Source: a virus. Taken from it: 35,588 nt of DNA. The stretch is from positions 1-35,588 of the IMG/VR virus record IMGVR_UViG_3300032278_000049; one strand, given 5' to 3'. The position numbers and the translations under genes were made by a program. Under the pieces are notes generated by a model. That model was not told the origin of the DNA and made no database searches. It saw only the letters and a program-made list of their open reading frames with translations. Below are positions 18,514 to 24,176 of this stretch, one piece after another (position 1 is the stretch's first letter; each line of letters opens with the position of its first letter).

Positions 18514-18542
18514 TTGACCTTTTTGGTTTAAGAACGTATAAT
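18514..18542 (+). promoter_or_regulatory. Sigma70-type promoter
   Basis: TTGACC (18514-18519), 17 bp, TATAAT (18537-18542), 42 nt before the ATG at 18584. A near-consensus host-type promoter for the group of small plus-strand genes 18584-19247. Confidence 0.75.
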
Positions 18543-19001: not shown

Positions 19002-19247
19002 ATGTTTATTTTTGCGTCAATTAACAATGCTAAGTTTAATATTAATGTAGACACGAAATTTGCAACGTACAAAAAAGATTTTAAATTAGATGACGTTAGT
19101 GCAATGGCACGTTTCCTTAAACAATTCAAAAAACAATCCCACATAGCAACTTCCTCCAGTATTGACTTTCCAGAAGAAGACGGAGCACCAGAAGGTTTTG
19201 ATGCTCGTGAAAAACTTGGACAAGCAATGCAACTTGCATGGTCCTAA
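19002..19247 (+). CDS. Small protein of unknown function (81 aa)
   Basis: ATG at 19002 has GGAG 6 nt upstream; a TTG at 18984 opens the same frame but lies within the previous gene. The product begins MFIFASINNAKFNINVDTKF, continues with a basic helix (MARFLKQFKKQ) and an acidic part DFPEEDGAPEGFD, and ends REKLGQAMQLAWS. No signature recognised. It ends 1 nt before the HNH gene. Confidence 0.65.
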   Translation: MFIFASINNAKFNINVDTKFATYKKDFKLDDVSAMARFLKQFKKQSHIATSSSIDFPEEDGAPEGFDAREKLGQAMQLAWS

Positions 19248-19248
19248 T

Positions 19249-19647
19249 ATGTCTATAAGACCAACATGTTGTAATCACGGGTGCGAAAAACCTGTAATAC
19301 CAATGACAGGAAAAATTTCAGATCCATCACCTAGGTGGAGGCCTGTATGCGGTCATTGTCAAGCCGCAAATTATGGTAAACATCCCTATGCAAAAGGAGT
19401 CACACCATTTGTTACAGGAACTTGTAGTAATAAAGATGGACACTTAGGATTTACTTGCTGGACTGACTTTGTTAGTATGCCAAAGGACTATAAAGGCAGA
19501 ACACAAATTGATCATGTTGATGGTAATCCTAATCATAATGATCTTTCCAATCTAGATGAACTTTGCCAATCTTGTCATTCTTATAAAGGACAACGAAGTG
19601 GTGATCATAATGGTTGGAAAGGATCTTCACGTAGGTTTAATAAATAG
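19249..19647 (+). CDS. HNH endonuclease-like zinc protein (132 aa)
   Basis: The HNH core is QIDHVDGNPNHNDLSNLDEL (residues 86-105) followed by CQSCHSYKGQ: D88-H89 in the first position, N101, and H110 in the last. Two CxxC pairs (C34/C37 in VCGHC and C106/C109) give a structural zinc site. I use ATG 19249, just after the previous stop; the open frame extends back to 19162 inside the upstream gene, but no ribosome binding site supports that. It may be a homing-type nuclease or one used in DNA processing. It sits just before the structural genes. Confidence 0.8.
   Translation: MSIRPTCCNHGCEKPVIPMTGKISDPSPRWRPVCGHCQAANYGKHPYAKGVTPFVTGTCSNKDGHLGFTCWTDFVSMPKDYKGRTQIDHVDGNPNHNDLSNLDELCQSCHSYKGQRSGDHNGWKGSSRRFNK
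19639..19646 (+). promoter_or_regulatory. Possible late promoter element
   Basis: AATAAATA overlaps the end of the HNH gene, 17 nt before the ATG at 19663, which has CGGAG upstream. Same form as before gp13, but in AT-rich DNA and next to a stop codon it could be chance. Confidence 0.35.
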
Positions 19648-19662
19648 AAACACGGAGATAAC

Positions 19663-20835
19663 ATGGCTACAAAAAGTAATTTGCTTAAAAAAGTACCAAA
19701 GAAAAAACGTCGAGTAACCAAATTAGAAGTAGACGAAAAGTATACAGGGGCTGAACAAGAATTTGTTGGCGATATACTTACTCGAGACCAAATTCAAAAC
19801 GGGTTCAATTATTACTGTTACCATAAAGGTGTTAAAGATGCTAAGACATTTATTGCAGATTTTCTAATTGCCGAAGGGCGTAAGGATGAAGCAAAGCAAG
19901 TTAAGGCATGTCCTGATGTGTTTGTTATTTCTACATACGGATGGCTTGCACGAATGAAAACTAAAGGTGCAACGTTTGATGTAGAAATGGATATCGAAGA
20001 TAGGCTTGAACAACATGTTCAATATCTTTGCAAACAAGGTAGTCTTAAAAAAGAAGTAGTTGCAGAAAAGAAAGAACTACGATCTCAAGGACCAACTATA
20101 CAAGACAGGATTAAAGAACAATCAAATGATATGGATGGACAATTCCAAGAATGGGTAGATTTATATGTAGGAAGTCCTAATTTGTTTAATCCTGTTATTT
20201 TAGATCCTTATGCACATTTACAAACTAGTAATTGTACTCAAGCTCATGCAAGACGTATTAAAAAGGATTGGGAGAATGAACTTGTTGAATTTGAAGAAGT
20301 AGTAAAAGGTGTTGATGAAGATCTTAAAGAAGGATATTCGCATTTACTTAAAAATAAGCGAATGGAAGGCCTTATTGAACTTGTAAATAGGTTTATTGAT
20401 GCCTGCGATGTTATTATAGGTGAATCAAAAGCAACACGAAAGCAACGTAAGAAGAAGCCGGTAAGTGTTGATAAACAAATTGCAAAACTCAAATTTAAAC
20501 AAACAGATGCTGGATTGGGAATTACTAGTGTTAATCCTGTTAACATTGTTGGTGCTACCATGGCTGTTATATACCAGTGCAAGTATCGTAAACTTGGTGT
20601 TTATGTAGCCGATGATGACAGAGGATTTAAGGTTAAAGGGACCACAATACTTAATTTTAGTGAGAAAAATTCAACTAAAAAGACCCTCAGGAAGCCTAAA
20701 GAGCAATTAAGTTTTGCTAAAAAGGCAACCAAACATAAGTTTGGTAAATGGTTTGAAGCAGACGTTAAAACCACAGAAACTAAACTTACTGGCCGGTTTT
20801 CCGACGATACAGTCATCCTGCAAGTCTTTAAGTAA
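19663..20835 (+). CDS. Conserved marine-myovirus protein of unknown function (390 aa)
   Basis: A basic start (KKVPKKKRRV), a mixed helical domain to about residue 135, a helical middle with acidic stretches (ELVEFEEVVKGVDEDLKEGY, residues about 205-225), a very basic linker (ESKATRKQRKKKPVSVDK), and a C-terminal domain about residues 275-390 with YQCKYRKLGVYVADDDRG, KGTTILNF, KKTLRKP and a closing GRFSDDTVILQVFK. I recall a similar C-terminal domain in cyanophage proteins of unknown function, unverified. It sits immediately upstream of gp13. Possibly DNA-binding or virion-associated; no catalytic motif seen. Confidence 0.7.
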   Translation: MATKSNLLKKVPKKKRRVTKLEVDEKYTGAEQEFVGDILTRDQIQNGFNYYCYHKGVKDAKTFIADFLIAEGRKDEAKQVKACPDVFVISTYGWLARMKTKGATFDVEMDIEDRLEQHVQYLCKQGSLKKEVVAEKKELRSQGPTIQDRIKEQSNDMDGQFQEWVDLYVGSPNLFNPVILDPYAHLQTSNCTQAHARRIKKDWENELVEFEEVVKGVDEDLKEGYSHLLKNKRMEGLIELVNRFIDACDVIIGESKATRKQRKKKPVSVDKQIAKLKFKQTDAGLGITSVNPVNIVGATMAVIYQCKYRKLGVYVADDDRGFKVKGTTILNFSEKNSTKKTLRKPKEQLSFAKKATKHKFGKWFEADVKTTETKLTGRFSDDTVILQVFK

Positions 20836-20839
20836 CATA

Positions 20840-20872
20840 CTGGTCTCCGAATAAATACTATACGGAGACCAG
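20840..20872 (+). promoter_or_regulatory. Hairpin enclosing a late promoter and hiding the gp13 ribosome binding site
   Basis: CTGGTCTCCG (20840-20849) and CGGAGACCAG (20863-20872) are perfect 10-bp arms. The 13-nt loop holds AATAAATA (20850-20857), the late promoter form of this phage. The 3' arm contains GGAG (20864-20867), the ribosome binding site of gp13 (ATG 20877). Transcripts from upstream would fold and hide the site; transcripts starting at the late promoter would begin near 20864 and lack the 5' arm. T4 genes e, soc and 49 are controlled this way. Confidence 0.8.
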
Positions 20873-20876
20873 AGTT

Positions 20877-21620
20877 ATGGCAAAGACCCGACAAGAGCTT
20901 ACCAAAGAAATAGAAATATCCCTCGGTGGAGGGATGATAGATGTTGAGTTAGATCCTGAACATTACGATCTAGCAATAGACAAAGCATTAGCAAAATATA
21001 GACAACGTAGTTCTAGAGCTACAGAAGAATCTTTTATTGCAGTTACATTAAAACCAGAGGTAAACAACTATGTTTTACCAACAGAAGTATTAGAAGTAAA
21101 AGATATATATAGAAGACAAACTGGATCTTTTGGATCAGGCCAAGGCGCAGATATAGAACCATTTGAAGCGGCATATCTAAATACATATATGTTGCATTCA
21201 GGTAGGGCAGGTGGCCTAGCAACATTTGAAGCATACCATGAAATGCGAGAGCATTTAGGTAAAATGTTTGGTTCAGAATATATGTTTACTTGGAAGCCTT
21301 GGAATAATACATTGTTTATTCATAGAAAAGTTAAGTCCGATGATGATGTATTTGTTCATTGTTATAACTATAAACCAGATTTAATTCTTATTGCAGATAC
21401 ATATTCTGCATCATGGATACGAGAATGGTCAATATCAGAATCTAAAATGATGTTGGCAGAAGCAAGAGGCAAATTTGTAACTATTGCCGGTCCACAAGGT
21501 GGCACCGCCCTTAATGCAGAAACATTAAGAGCAGATGCTACTGCAAGTTTTCAAGCACTAGAGGAAGAACTAAAAACATATGTAGATGGTGGTGATCCTC
21601 TAGGTTTCGTTATAGGATAA
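20877..21620 (+). CDS. 13: gp13-like neck protein (247 aa)
   Basis: Resembles the gp13 neck proteins of marine T4-like phages: MAKTRQELTKEIEISLGGGM, an acidic LDPEHYDLAIDKALAKYRQR helix, NYVLPTEVLEVKDIYRR, then a C-terminal part with WIREWSISESKMMLAEARGK that is characteristic of the family. T4 gp13 is 309 aa; marine versions are shorter. gp13 joins the portal vertex with gp14 (here on the other strand at 5658). Expression is probably late and controlled by the leader hairpin. It is followed after 1 nt by the 2OG oxygenase gene, so the bilin genes may be read through from its promoter. Confidence 0.75.
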   Translation: MAKTRQELTKEIEISLGGGMIDVELDPEHYDLAIDKALAKYRQRSSRATEESFIAVTLKPEVNNYVLPTEVLEVKDIYRRQTGSFGSGQGADIEPFEAAYLNTYMLHSGRAGGLATFEAYHEMREHLGKMFGSEYMFTWKPWNNTLFIHRKVKSDDDVFVHCYNYKPDLILIADTYSASWIREWSISESKMMLAEARGKFVTIAGPQGGTALNAETLRADATASFQALEEELKTYVDGGDPLGFVIG

Positions 21621-21621
21621 A

Positions 21622-22332
21622 ATGGAAGAACAAGAAACCGAATTGCAAATCATAGAAGATAGTTATGACATGGCAACCAGTGCATCTAAGGATGGTTTTT
21701 CTGAATCGTTTATTTTAGAATATCCTGAATTTTTCGATGAAGATTACTGTCAAACAATTATAGATAAATTTAATATATTAGATAAAGAAGGATTTTCAGA
21801 TATATCTGCGGCAGGACATAAAGCAGATAGACCGTCAGTCGATGCACAATTTTTTAGATCTAAAGGTAAGCATGTATGGTTAAATCATATTGCAAGAGGA
21901 TTAGATTTTAATCATGTAGTACACACAACAAACGAAACAGCATTCTTTTTTGAGCAATTAAAAAGGGCTGTTAGAATTTACAAATCAAAATTTAGAGTAG
22001 GATTAACGATGCCTCTTACTTGTAACGATATGAAAGTACAACGTGTCAATGCAGGTGGTGGATTTCATGCATGGCATTCTGAATGGAGTAAAGAATCTAA
22101 TTCAAGAATGCTTGTATATCAATTATTCTTAAATACCTTACCTGAAGGCGAAGGTGAAACAGAATTTTTCCATTTAGGAGTTCGTTGTAAACCACAAGCA
22201 GGTAAATTAGTTATATGGCCAGCAGGATGGACCCATGTTCATAGAGGAAACCCTAATTATACTACAGATAAGTATATTATAACAGGTTGGTTTCATATCA
22301 ACGATCTAACATTAAATTATAACATCGAATGA
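21622..22332 (+). CDS. 2OG-Fe(II) oxygenase (236 aa)
   Basis: The jelly-roll oxygenase core starts around residue 135: VQRVNAGGGFHAWHSEW with iron ligands H152-x-E154 (an HxE variant of HxD), LPEGEGETEFFHLG, then AGKLVIWPAGWTHVHRGN with distal H205/H207, and KYIITGWFHI with K217 as a possible 2OG anchor. Many cyanophages carry similar enzymes. The N-terminal part is acidic and helical. It follows gp13 by 1 nt and overlaps heme oxygenase as ATGA, so it belongs to the bilin island operon. Substrate unknown. Confidence 0.85.
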   Translation: MEEQETELQIIEDSYDMATSASKDGFSESFILEYPEFFDEDYCQTIIDKFNILDKEGFSDISAAGHKADRPSVDAQFFRSKGKHVWLNHIARGLDFNHVVHTTNETAFFFEQLKRAVRIYKSKFRVGLTMPLTCNDMKVQRVNAGGGFHAWHSEWSKESNSRMLVYQLFLNTLPEGEGETEFFHLGVRCKPQAGKLVIWPAGWTHVHRGNPNYTTDKYIITGWFHINDLTLNYNIE

Positions 22333-22883
22333 GTTTAAAAGAATTAACATTAAAAGAACATAGATTTGCCGAAGAACAAGATTTTGCACATTTAATGATG
22401 AGTGGAAATATAGAAATTCCTGTATATTTTCATTACTTAATGAATCAATATTTTATATATAGTGTATTAGAAAACACACATTATAATTTGCCTGATTCTC
22501 GATTAGCACGAGCAGACGCAATAAATGAAGATATGGAAGAATTAAAATCGCAAGATCAAATACCTATGGCGTGTCACGACTTAACGCCAAGTACTGAAGA
22601 ATATATACAGTATGTAAAAGAAAAGATACATACAGAACAACAATACCTAGCTCACATTTATGTCCGCTATTTAGGCGATTTGCGTGGTGGACAAATGATA
22701 TCAAAAAAAATTCCTGGTGAAGGCAAATATTATAAATTCGAAAAACCAAAAGTATTAGCAGAATCAATTTATACTAAATTAGACGATAGCATGGCAGATG
22801 AAGCAAAAATAGTATTTGAATTTGCTACAAAACAATTTCAAGAATTATATGCAGGACATTTTCAAAACCCTAAAAAAGTGTGA
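22329..22883 (+). CDS. ho1: Heme oxygenase (biliverdin-forming, 184 aa)
   Basis: Opens heme to biliverdin, CO and Fe2+ with electrons from ferredoxin or another reductant. The start LKEHRFAEEQDFAHLMMSG holds the proximal heme ligand H11 in the usual context, and YVRYLGDLRGGQMI (residues about 113-126) is the distal helix signature (GD, GG). It is shorter than plant/cyanobacterial HO1 (about 240 aa), as is usual for phage forms. ATGA overlap with the upstream oxygenase and a 35-nt overlap with the bilin reductase imply coupled translation. Acts before the bilin reductase in the same pathway. Confidence 0.93.
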   Translation: MSLKELTLKEHRFAEEQDFAHLMMSGNIEIPVYFHYLMNQYFIYSVLENTHYNLPDSRLARADAINEDMEELKSQDQIPMACHDLTPSTEEYIQYVKEKIHTEQQYLAHIYVRYLGDLRGGQMISKKIPGEGKYYKFEKPKVLAESIYTKLDDSMADEAKIVFEFATKQFQELYAGHFQNPKKV

Positions 22884-23517
22884 AAATAACTTACTTAACT
22901 TATTATCAGATACAGGCACTGACGTCCCTGATCATCATGAATGGCCATGGCGTAATTATGTATTTGAATCTAAATTTTATCGTAGAGCCCACCTAGATGC
23001 TGTAGAAACTGACAAGTTATACATGTTTCATTTGTGTATCTTTCCTCAAGTATATAATCCTGCTCCTATATATGGTGTTGATGTTATTGCTGGCAAAAAT
23101 ATTGTTAGCGGTGCATTTCACGATTTTAGTAAAGCAGGAAACGATAATCATCCTATGATGCAATGGTTTGCAGAAAAAGTAAAGCCATATAATTGGACTA
23201 GCACACGAGAATTACCAGAATGGGCACAAAATATTTTTAGTCCTAGTATGATAGCAGTAAGTAGGAGTAAAGAACCCCAAGACTATACAAACTTTTGTGA
23301 TTTAGCAGTTGAAAATTTAGAATACTATCTTACTGAACTAGATAAATGTAATGCATATGAGTTAGATAATAGCCAACATTTTACAGTTAAAAATCAAAAT
23401 TGGTATTGTAAAAATCAGAAAGAAAATCCCCACACACCAAGAGTAATGAGTAATTTTTGCGATGACGAAGAAACGGTTCGCAAGTTTATCCATGAATGTT
23501 TATTTCCGGAGATATAA
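22849..23517 (+). CDS. pcyX: Ferredoxin-dependent bilin reductase, PcyX-type (222 aa)
   Basis: Reduces biliverdin to a phycobilin with electrons from ferredoxin. Family marks: HLCIFPQVYNPAPIYGVDVI, then ELPEWAQNIFSPSMIA, and NPHTPRVMSNF near the C-terminus. Counting from ATG 22849, H61 and D78 are 17 residues apart and match PcyA H88 and D105. PebS has Asn at the His position, so the protein is closer to PcyA/PcyX. PcyX has been described from oceanic phage contigs of probable alphaproteobacterial hosts and makes phycoerythrobilin. The frame is open to a TTG at 22816; I prefer the ATG, although its ribosome binding site is weak. It ends sharing its last A with the next ATG. Confidence 0.85.
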   Translation: MQDIFKTLKKCENNLLNLLSDTGTDVPDHHEWPWRNYVFESKFYRRAHLDAVETDKLYMFHLCIFPQVYNPAPIYGVDVIAGKNIVSGAFHDFSKAGNDNHPMMQWFAEKVKPYNWTSTRELPEWAQNIFSPSMIAVSRSKEPQDYTNFCDLAVENLEYYLTELDKCNAYELDNSQHFTVKNQNWYCKNQKENPHTPRVMSNFCDDEETVRKFIHECLFPEI

Positions 23518-24176
23518 TGGATTTTATATACCCTTTTCAACCTCCTGCACTATTGCATGATACAATTAGTAAAGAGTTATTAGATGATACTAATAAAATA
23601 TGTGATGAATTGTTACCAGATAAAGAAGCTCTTGAAGCAACATCACAATTACTAGATACAATTTATCATGGTTATGCAACTAGAATTACAAACCCAGGAC
23701 ACGAATTAAGAGATAAGATATTTTCGATGGCATATAGTTATATTAAATCATTTGAGCAATCAACTCATGCAAATATTTTTGATGATGATGCTGATAGATT
23801 AATAATTTCCAAAATGTGGTTTTTAGATTTAGATGACAAAGATTATTTACAAGCTCATCACCATGGAGAACATAATATTTTGTCTGGTATTATATATTTA
23901 AAAGTACCAGAATCATTAAACAAAAATTATGATACAGAATTTCCTAAAAATTGGGTACGAAGAGGTAAAACACCATTTGCAAATGGTTGTATAGAATTTA
24001 CATATAATCCTATGATACTACCTGACAAGTTATTATCCTCCGACACGTATATAGTACGCCCCGAAGTAGGCCACATGTATTTGTGGCCTGCATGGCTGTT
24101 TCATACTGTTTATCCTTTTTATAGTTCAGAACACCGCCGTTCTTTATCATTTAACGTAGCGATCGCCCCCTTATAA
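23517..24176 (+). CDS. 2OG-Fe(II) oxygenase (219 aa)
   Basis: Fits the putative 2OG-Fe(II) oxygenase family common in cyanophages: MWFLDLDDKDYLQAHHHGEH (residues 100-119), ILSGIIYLKVP, then GHMYLWPAWLFHTVYPF (residues 185-201) with distal H196 and RRSLSFNVA with R207 or R208 as 2OG anchor. I choose ATG 23517 because GGAG lies 6 nt upstream and the ATG shares its A with the bilin reductase TAA; an earlier frame start at 23496 lies inside that gene. Last gene of the bilin island. Substrate unknown. Confidence 0.85.
   Translation: MDFIYPFQPPALLHDTISKELLDDTNKICDELLPDKEALEATSQLLDTIYHGYATRITNPGHELRDKIFSMAYSYIKSFEQSTHANIFDDDADRLIISKMWFLDLDDKDYLQAHHHGEHNILSGIIYLKVPESLNKNYDTEFPKNWVRRGKTPFANGCIEFTYNPMILPDKLLSSDTYIVRPEVGHMYLWPAWLFHTVYPFYSSEHRRSLSFNVAIAPL

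Follow-up and report, generated by a model that had tools for sequence, protein, structure and literature searches.

A late promoter box lies inside the hairpin in front of gp13

The region upstream of gp13 in the window, by which we mean the whole 35,588-nucleotide stretch of viral DNA analyzed here, raises the question of why a late promoter box should lie within a hairpin that also contains the gene's ribosome binding site (RBS). A preliminary description had proposed a switch that leaves gp13 silent in early read-through RNA and translatable in late RNA. The elements concerned are as follows.

18514-18542, + strand: sigma-70-like promoter (TTGACC-17-TATAAT), from which early read-through RNA may originate
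19162-19647, + strand: HNH endonuclease-like open reading frame (phrog_333, E 1.3e-6), between the sigma-70-like promoter and phrog_11903
19639-19646, + strand: late box AATAAATA of phrog_11903, possible source of a late dicistronic RNA
19663-20835, + strand: phrog_11903, 390 aa, function unknown, kept upstream of gp13 in relatives
20840-20849, + strand: 5′ arm of the hairpin, CTGGTCTCCG, the anti-Shine-Dalgarno (anti-SD) strand, predicted to be missing in late RNA
20850-20857, + strand: T4-type late promoter box within the hairpin loop, AATAAATA, assigned by motif
20863-20872, + strand: 3′ arm of the hairpin, CGGAGACCAG, with the predicted late start at its first or second base
20864-20867, + strand: GGAG, the gp13 SD in the 3′ arm, predicted to be sequestered in read-through RNA
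20877-21620, + strand: gp13, neck protein/head-tail adaptor Ad2, 247 aa (phrog_211, E 1.4e-36)

A comparison of gp13 with Pfam gave zero matches, and the named-phage gp13 proteins closest to it belong to jumbo phages, with at most 44.7% identity by tblastn (Atu_ph07). In the window, gp13 is separated from the tail sheath gene by 2OG-Fe(II) oxygenase-like genes and a ferredoxin oxidoreductase-like gene (positions 21622-24176).

Direct reading of the sequence bears out the perfect 10-bp arms, the late box in the loop and the GGAG in the 3′ arm that the preliminary description had reported: the hairpin at 20840-20872 consists of CTGGTCTCCG, AATAAATACTATA and CGGAGACCAG, followed by AGTT and the ATG, with 9 nt from GGAG to the ATG at 20877. 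A repeat finder listed the same inverted repeat with 14-nt arms that are 93% complementary. The hairpin alone has a predicted folding energy of -18.3 kcal/mol, with a z score of -8.0 relative to 200 dinucleotide-shuffled sequences; within a 101-nt context, the z score is -5.1. An Rfam scan of 20600-21100 returned only a sub-threshold chance match.

The AATAAATACTATA segment has the features of a gp55-dependent late promoter, namely a TATAAATA-like box and AT-rich sequence downstream. In T4, the 8-bp late box occupies -13 to -6, and an A at -13 is a known variant (PMC2988020). The ATAAATA motif occurs 14 times in the window against 28 expected by chance and so is avoided overall; 11 of the 14 copies are on the + strand, and several immediately precede gene starts. 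T4 numbering would place +1 at 20863, where the 3′ arm begins, within one base of the 20864 given previously. The predicted late RNA would have a 14-nt leader with GGAG at its 5′ end and would lack the entire 5′ arm, which ends at 20849, as does the late RNA of T4-type switches. A gp55-like factor (phrog_234) is present in the contigs of the relatives L305 and L239; it was not found in the 65.7-kb contig of L006.

Predicted silencing of gp13 in read-through RNA

We compared the predicted accessibility of the SD in the two RNAs. Exposing GGAG is predicted to require 14.9 kcal/mol in the read-through RNA, compared to 0.8 kcal/mol in the late RNA. With the upstream sequence shuffled, the opening cost was 2.6 ± 1.6 kcal/mol, and none of 300 shuffles reached 14.9 kcal/mol. 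The pairing of the RBS and/or AUG in read-through RNA that characterizes T4-type switches is thus predicted for gp13 by its opening cost.

Genes with T4-type switches lie downstream of early or middle transcription, and for gp13 such read-through RNA could come from the sigma-70-like promoter at 18514; the scan returned no terminator-like sites on the + strand between this promoter and gp13. Of the 64 loci that offered 2.5 kb of sequence before gp13, 30 have a sigma-70-like site (11 or 12 of 12 positions) there on the gp13 strand and 11 have one on the opposite strand, and twelve-of-twelve sites of a shared sigma-70 type occur upstream in relatives. More generally, sigma-70-type promoters and early-type genes are often found upstream of gp13. 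We note that the strong promoters of the shared type (window 18514-18542, L004, L006, L090, L095 and L288) resemble an early promoter family belonging to these phages, and that several are followed by TTAAGTTAAC.

Taken together, these data make a translational timing switch the best explanation of the gp13 hairpin, and one that we consider probable. The sequence, the fold, the accessibility difference, the recurring layout with unrelated arms (see below) and the upstream sigma-70-like promoters were obtained by computation; the silence of read-through RNA, the use of gp55 and the late start site are parts of a mechanism that we infer. Read-through RNA from upstream promoters would fold the 10-bp hairpin, which would hide GGAG and leave gp13 silent. 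Late in infection, a gp55-type polymerase would use the AATAAATA box of the loop as its promoter, and the resulting RNA, starting at about 20863-20864 and lacking the 5′ arm, would expose GGAG and allow gp13 to be translated. The promoter-in-loop, SD-in-3′-arm switch of the preliminary description is upheld by the predicted SD accessibility and by hairpins with unrelated arms at related and distant gp13 loci, and further by the specificity for gp13 in marine loci and the same-strand sigma-70-type promoters upstream; as a predicted switch, it is well supported by comparison, all of it computational.

One part of that description needs amending. Early RNA probably is silent for gp13, as it had stated, but if the late box of phrog_11903 works, a late dicistronic RNA must also exist, and the silent read-through RNA may comprise both the early RNA and this late dicistronic RNA from the 19639-19646 box. 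Among the points against the switch, only 4 nt separate the phrog_11903 stop codon (20833-20835) from the hairpin, so that terminating ribosomes might open the 5′ arm.

The layout recurs with unrelated arms

Among close relatives, the hairpin is kept in loci whose gp13 is 79 to 100% identical to that of the window. Conservation covers the inner 7 bp, where group 3 has one wobble or mismatch, and does not extend to the outer two or three pairs. Group 2 keeps GGTCTCCG/CGGAGACC, with two extra loop bases and the AUG nearer. In group 3 (gp13 about 61 to 63% identical), the stem is 7 bp long and includes one wobble; part of this group, L090 and similar loci, carries a mismatch that weakens the stem (opening cost of 6.1 kcal/mol and z 1.9 for L090). 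The preliminary description had made its reading depend on conservation of the stem, and the core of the stem is indeed kept in these relatives, in line with the maintenance of structure in relatives seen for T4-type switches. Its other suggestion, a search for compensatory changes, proved uninformative in the close clade: in pair counts on the cut-out arms of groups 1 to 3, a single pair had changed on both sides (from G-C to A-U in L003), and covariation did not exceed that in shuffles. Because MAFFT had put the two loop bases inserted in group 2 at the wrong place in the group alignment, the arms used for this count were excised by eye and aligned afresh. With its outer pairs not conserved and no covariation excess, the close clade alone is no proof of the stem.

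More telling are loci in which the arms differ and the layout stays. In the neighboring clade, L129 has the arms GTTACCTCTT/AAGAGGTAAC, unrelated to those of the window and in the same layout, and L302-L308 have CAACTACCTT/AAGGTAGTTG, with the L302 stem reaching across the AUG. In two further loci, L142 and L148, short CAAGTA/TACTTG arms flank the late box upstream of gp13, with AGGAG just outside and the RBS uncovered.

We also examined gp13 of 13 RaK2-type records (RaK2, K64-1, RCIP0023, 121Q, SD-2_S15, GAP32, CBB, XbC2, pEa_SNUABM_19, XaC1, Munch, fENko-Kae01 and Hallingskeid). In all 13, the late box lies in a hairpin or overlaps its 5′ arm, and the RBS lies in the 3′ arm. The arms are AGCACCTC/GAGGTGCT in RaK2 and 121Q, GCACCCCTAT/ATAGGGGTGC in Munch, ACCCCTAAAT/GTTTAGGGGT in CBB and AATCCTCTAAA/TTTAGAGGATT in XaC1, and the read-through opening costs, where computed, are 13.4 to 17.3 kcal/mol. 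For RaK2 and 121Q, we chose to replace the first annotated gp13 start with a downstream in-frame ATG that has an RBS. The annotated starts (L325:2941 for RaK2 and L336:1435 for 121Q) precede the 3′ arm of the hairpin, and the in-frame ATG 12 to 15 nt downstream, with GAGGT in front, looks like the better start. The hairpin is missing or weak at gp13 of PA5oct, Atu_ph07, Phosso, SCTP-2 and Vibrio 2.275. In the gp13 tree, strong hairpins occupy two regions, marine and RaK2-type. A wide gap in this tree divides the RaK2-type phages from the marine clade, which makes convergent evolution of the RaK2-type hairpins possible; either descent or convergence may account for the two sets.

Confinement to gp13 and RaK2-type tail sheath genes

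To compare gp13 with other late genes, we surveyed 232 box-gene pairs in 108 marine loci. Nine box-enclosing stems scored at least 22, the threshold used, with 0.3 expected, and all nine were at gp13; at the non-gp13 late boxes of this survey, box-enclosing hairpins were not above chance. Most of the remaining hits in the pattern scan were at further late genes and had no stem.

When 38 promoter-gene pairs taken from the window, CBB, 121Q and RaK2 were ranked by the difference between their read-through and late RNAs, the top six places all went to gp13 (window, RaK2 and 121Q) or to the tail sheath gene (CBB, 121Q and RaK2). CBB gp13 is not among the 38 pairs, as the set of ribosome binding sites used did not include its AGGGG. 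High opening costs of 11.0 to 14.6 kcal/mol were obtained for all nine RaK2-type sheath genes tested (hairpin sites L345:8798, L346:7852 and L347:10450; sheath genes of L327, L329, L330, L331, L333 and L334), and those of PA5oct and the window were not high. In RaK2-type phages, the sheath gene has the same kind of late-box hairpin, AATCCTCC/GGAGGATT, directly after a dNMP kinase gene, and gp13 comes after a run of nudix, glutaredoxin and macro-domain genes. This RaK2-type gene order suggests that the putative switch sits at junctions where late genes follow early-type genes. The sheath gene of the window is a counterexample, as it has no hairpin although it too lies behind non-virion genes.

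Alternative explanations

The hairpin might have no role in early/late timing and instead serve translational coupling or insulation, either by tying gp13 translation on a dicistronic RNA to ribosomes finishing phrog_11903 or by making gp13 output independent of upstream transcription. The short distance from the phrog_11903 stop (20833-20835) to the arm at 20840 and the late box that phrog_11903 has of its own in the window would suit such a role. This distance varies, however, from about 7 in group 2 to 9 in L129, 14 in L302 and more in RaK2, and the promoter falls within the hairpin every time, a placement that coupling does not need; we regard this explanation as unlikely.

It is quite improbable that the hairpin acts mainly as a terminator, RNase barrier or processing site for upstream RNA with SD pairing as a by-product. 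A T run follows the hairpin in XaC1, GAP32, CBB, Munch and 121Q, and the T-run hairpins of several RaK2-type phages may also end upstream RNA. Neither the window nor the marine clade has such a T run, though, and the SD in the 3′ arm and the late box inside persist despite differing arm sequences. An intrinsic terminator at the window hairpin was rejected: the stem is followed by AGTTATGG, and the site was uncalled in the terminator scan. A chance inverted repeat conserved merely through recent common descent would fit the invariant core stem and the lack of covariation excess in the close clade but is hardly credible against a z score of -8.0, unrelated arms with the same layout in other clades and a survey enrichment confined to gp13.

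Relation to T4 switches

The timing switch has well-described counterparts. Early read-through RNA of the T4 lysozyme gene e hides the RBS in a stem, and the late RNA, which starts inside the structure and lacks the 5′ strand, is translated (PMC3014915). For T4 soc, 49, I-TevI, I-TevII, I-TevIII and segB and for Aeh1 mobE, the RBS is likewise sequestered by RNA structure and freed in late RNA (PMC3014915, PMC2988022). To judge from the sequence-level features that it shows, the gp13 switch would work like those of e, soc, 49 and I-TevI (PMC3014915, PMC2988022). The logic matches that of gene e, but here it is predicted for a neck protein gene of unrelated sequence in a distant lineage; the T4-type cases include a capsid decoration gene, a nuclease gene and homing endonucleases, whereas ours are gp13 and the RaK2-type tail sheath gene. 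The published account of CBB describes a gp55-like sigma factor and an ATAAATA late motif before structural genes, the same motif as in the window; its passages on promoters and terminators make no mention of RBS-hiding hairpins (PMC5259590). Our comparison suggests that a device of a few T4 genes recurs at gp13 of marine and jumbo phages and at the RaK2-type sheath gene. As the arms change in sequence and the layout stays, the layout offers a simple predictor of late genes lying in early RNA.

A sister clade with predicted leaderless late mRNA

A sister clade of 27 gp13 sequences lacks the hairpin and almost entirely lacks ribosome binding sites. In 28 gp13 sequences, 27 of them in this one clade of the tree, the late box ends exactly 5 nt before the ATG, and nearly all are without an RBS. 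With T4 spacing, a box at this distance puts +1 at the A of the AUG, which predicts a leaderless late mRNA. Across loci, 52 box-gene pairs have the 5-nt spacing (22 at gp13 and 30 at other genes), compared to 0 or 1 for control motifs. We tentatively suggest that late-only gp13 translation has two routes in the sister marine clades, one being the promoter-in-hairpin switch and the other leaderless late mRNA. In the second, the RBS would have been dropped and the late box set 5 nt before the AUG, so that only late RNA would begin with AUG and read-through RNA would offer no ribosome binding site. A search of the open-access literature returned nothing on point for leaderless late RNA in such phages. 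The clade provides a natural comparison for the hairpin, and with it the possibility of leaderless late mRNA in T4-related phages becomes testable. Examples of the 5-nt spacing at gp13 are found in L023-L081 and others, which are marine T4-related contigs; the leaderless mRNAs predicted there, for gp13 and for the roughly 30 other genes, mostly lack an RBS. In the leaderless clade, a sigma-70-like site lies directly before phrog_11903, which has an RBS in the examples read.
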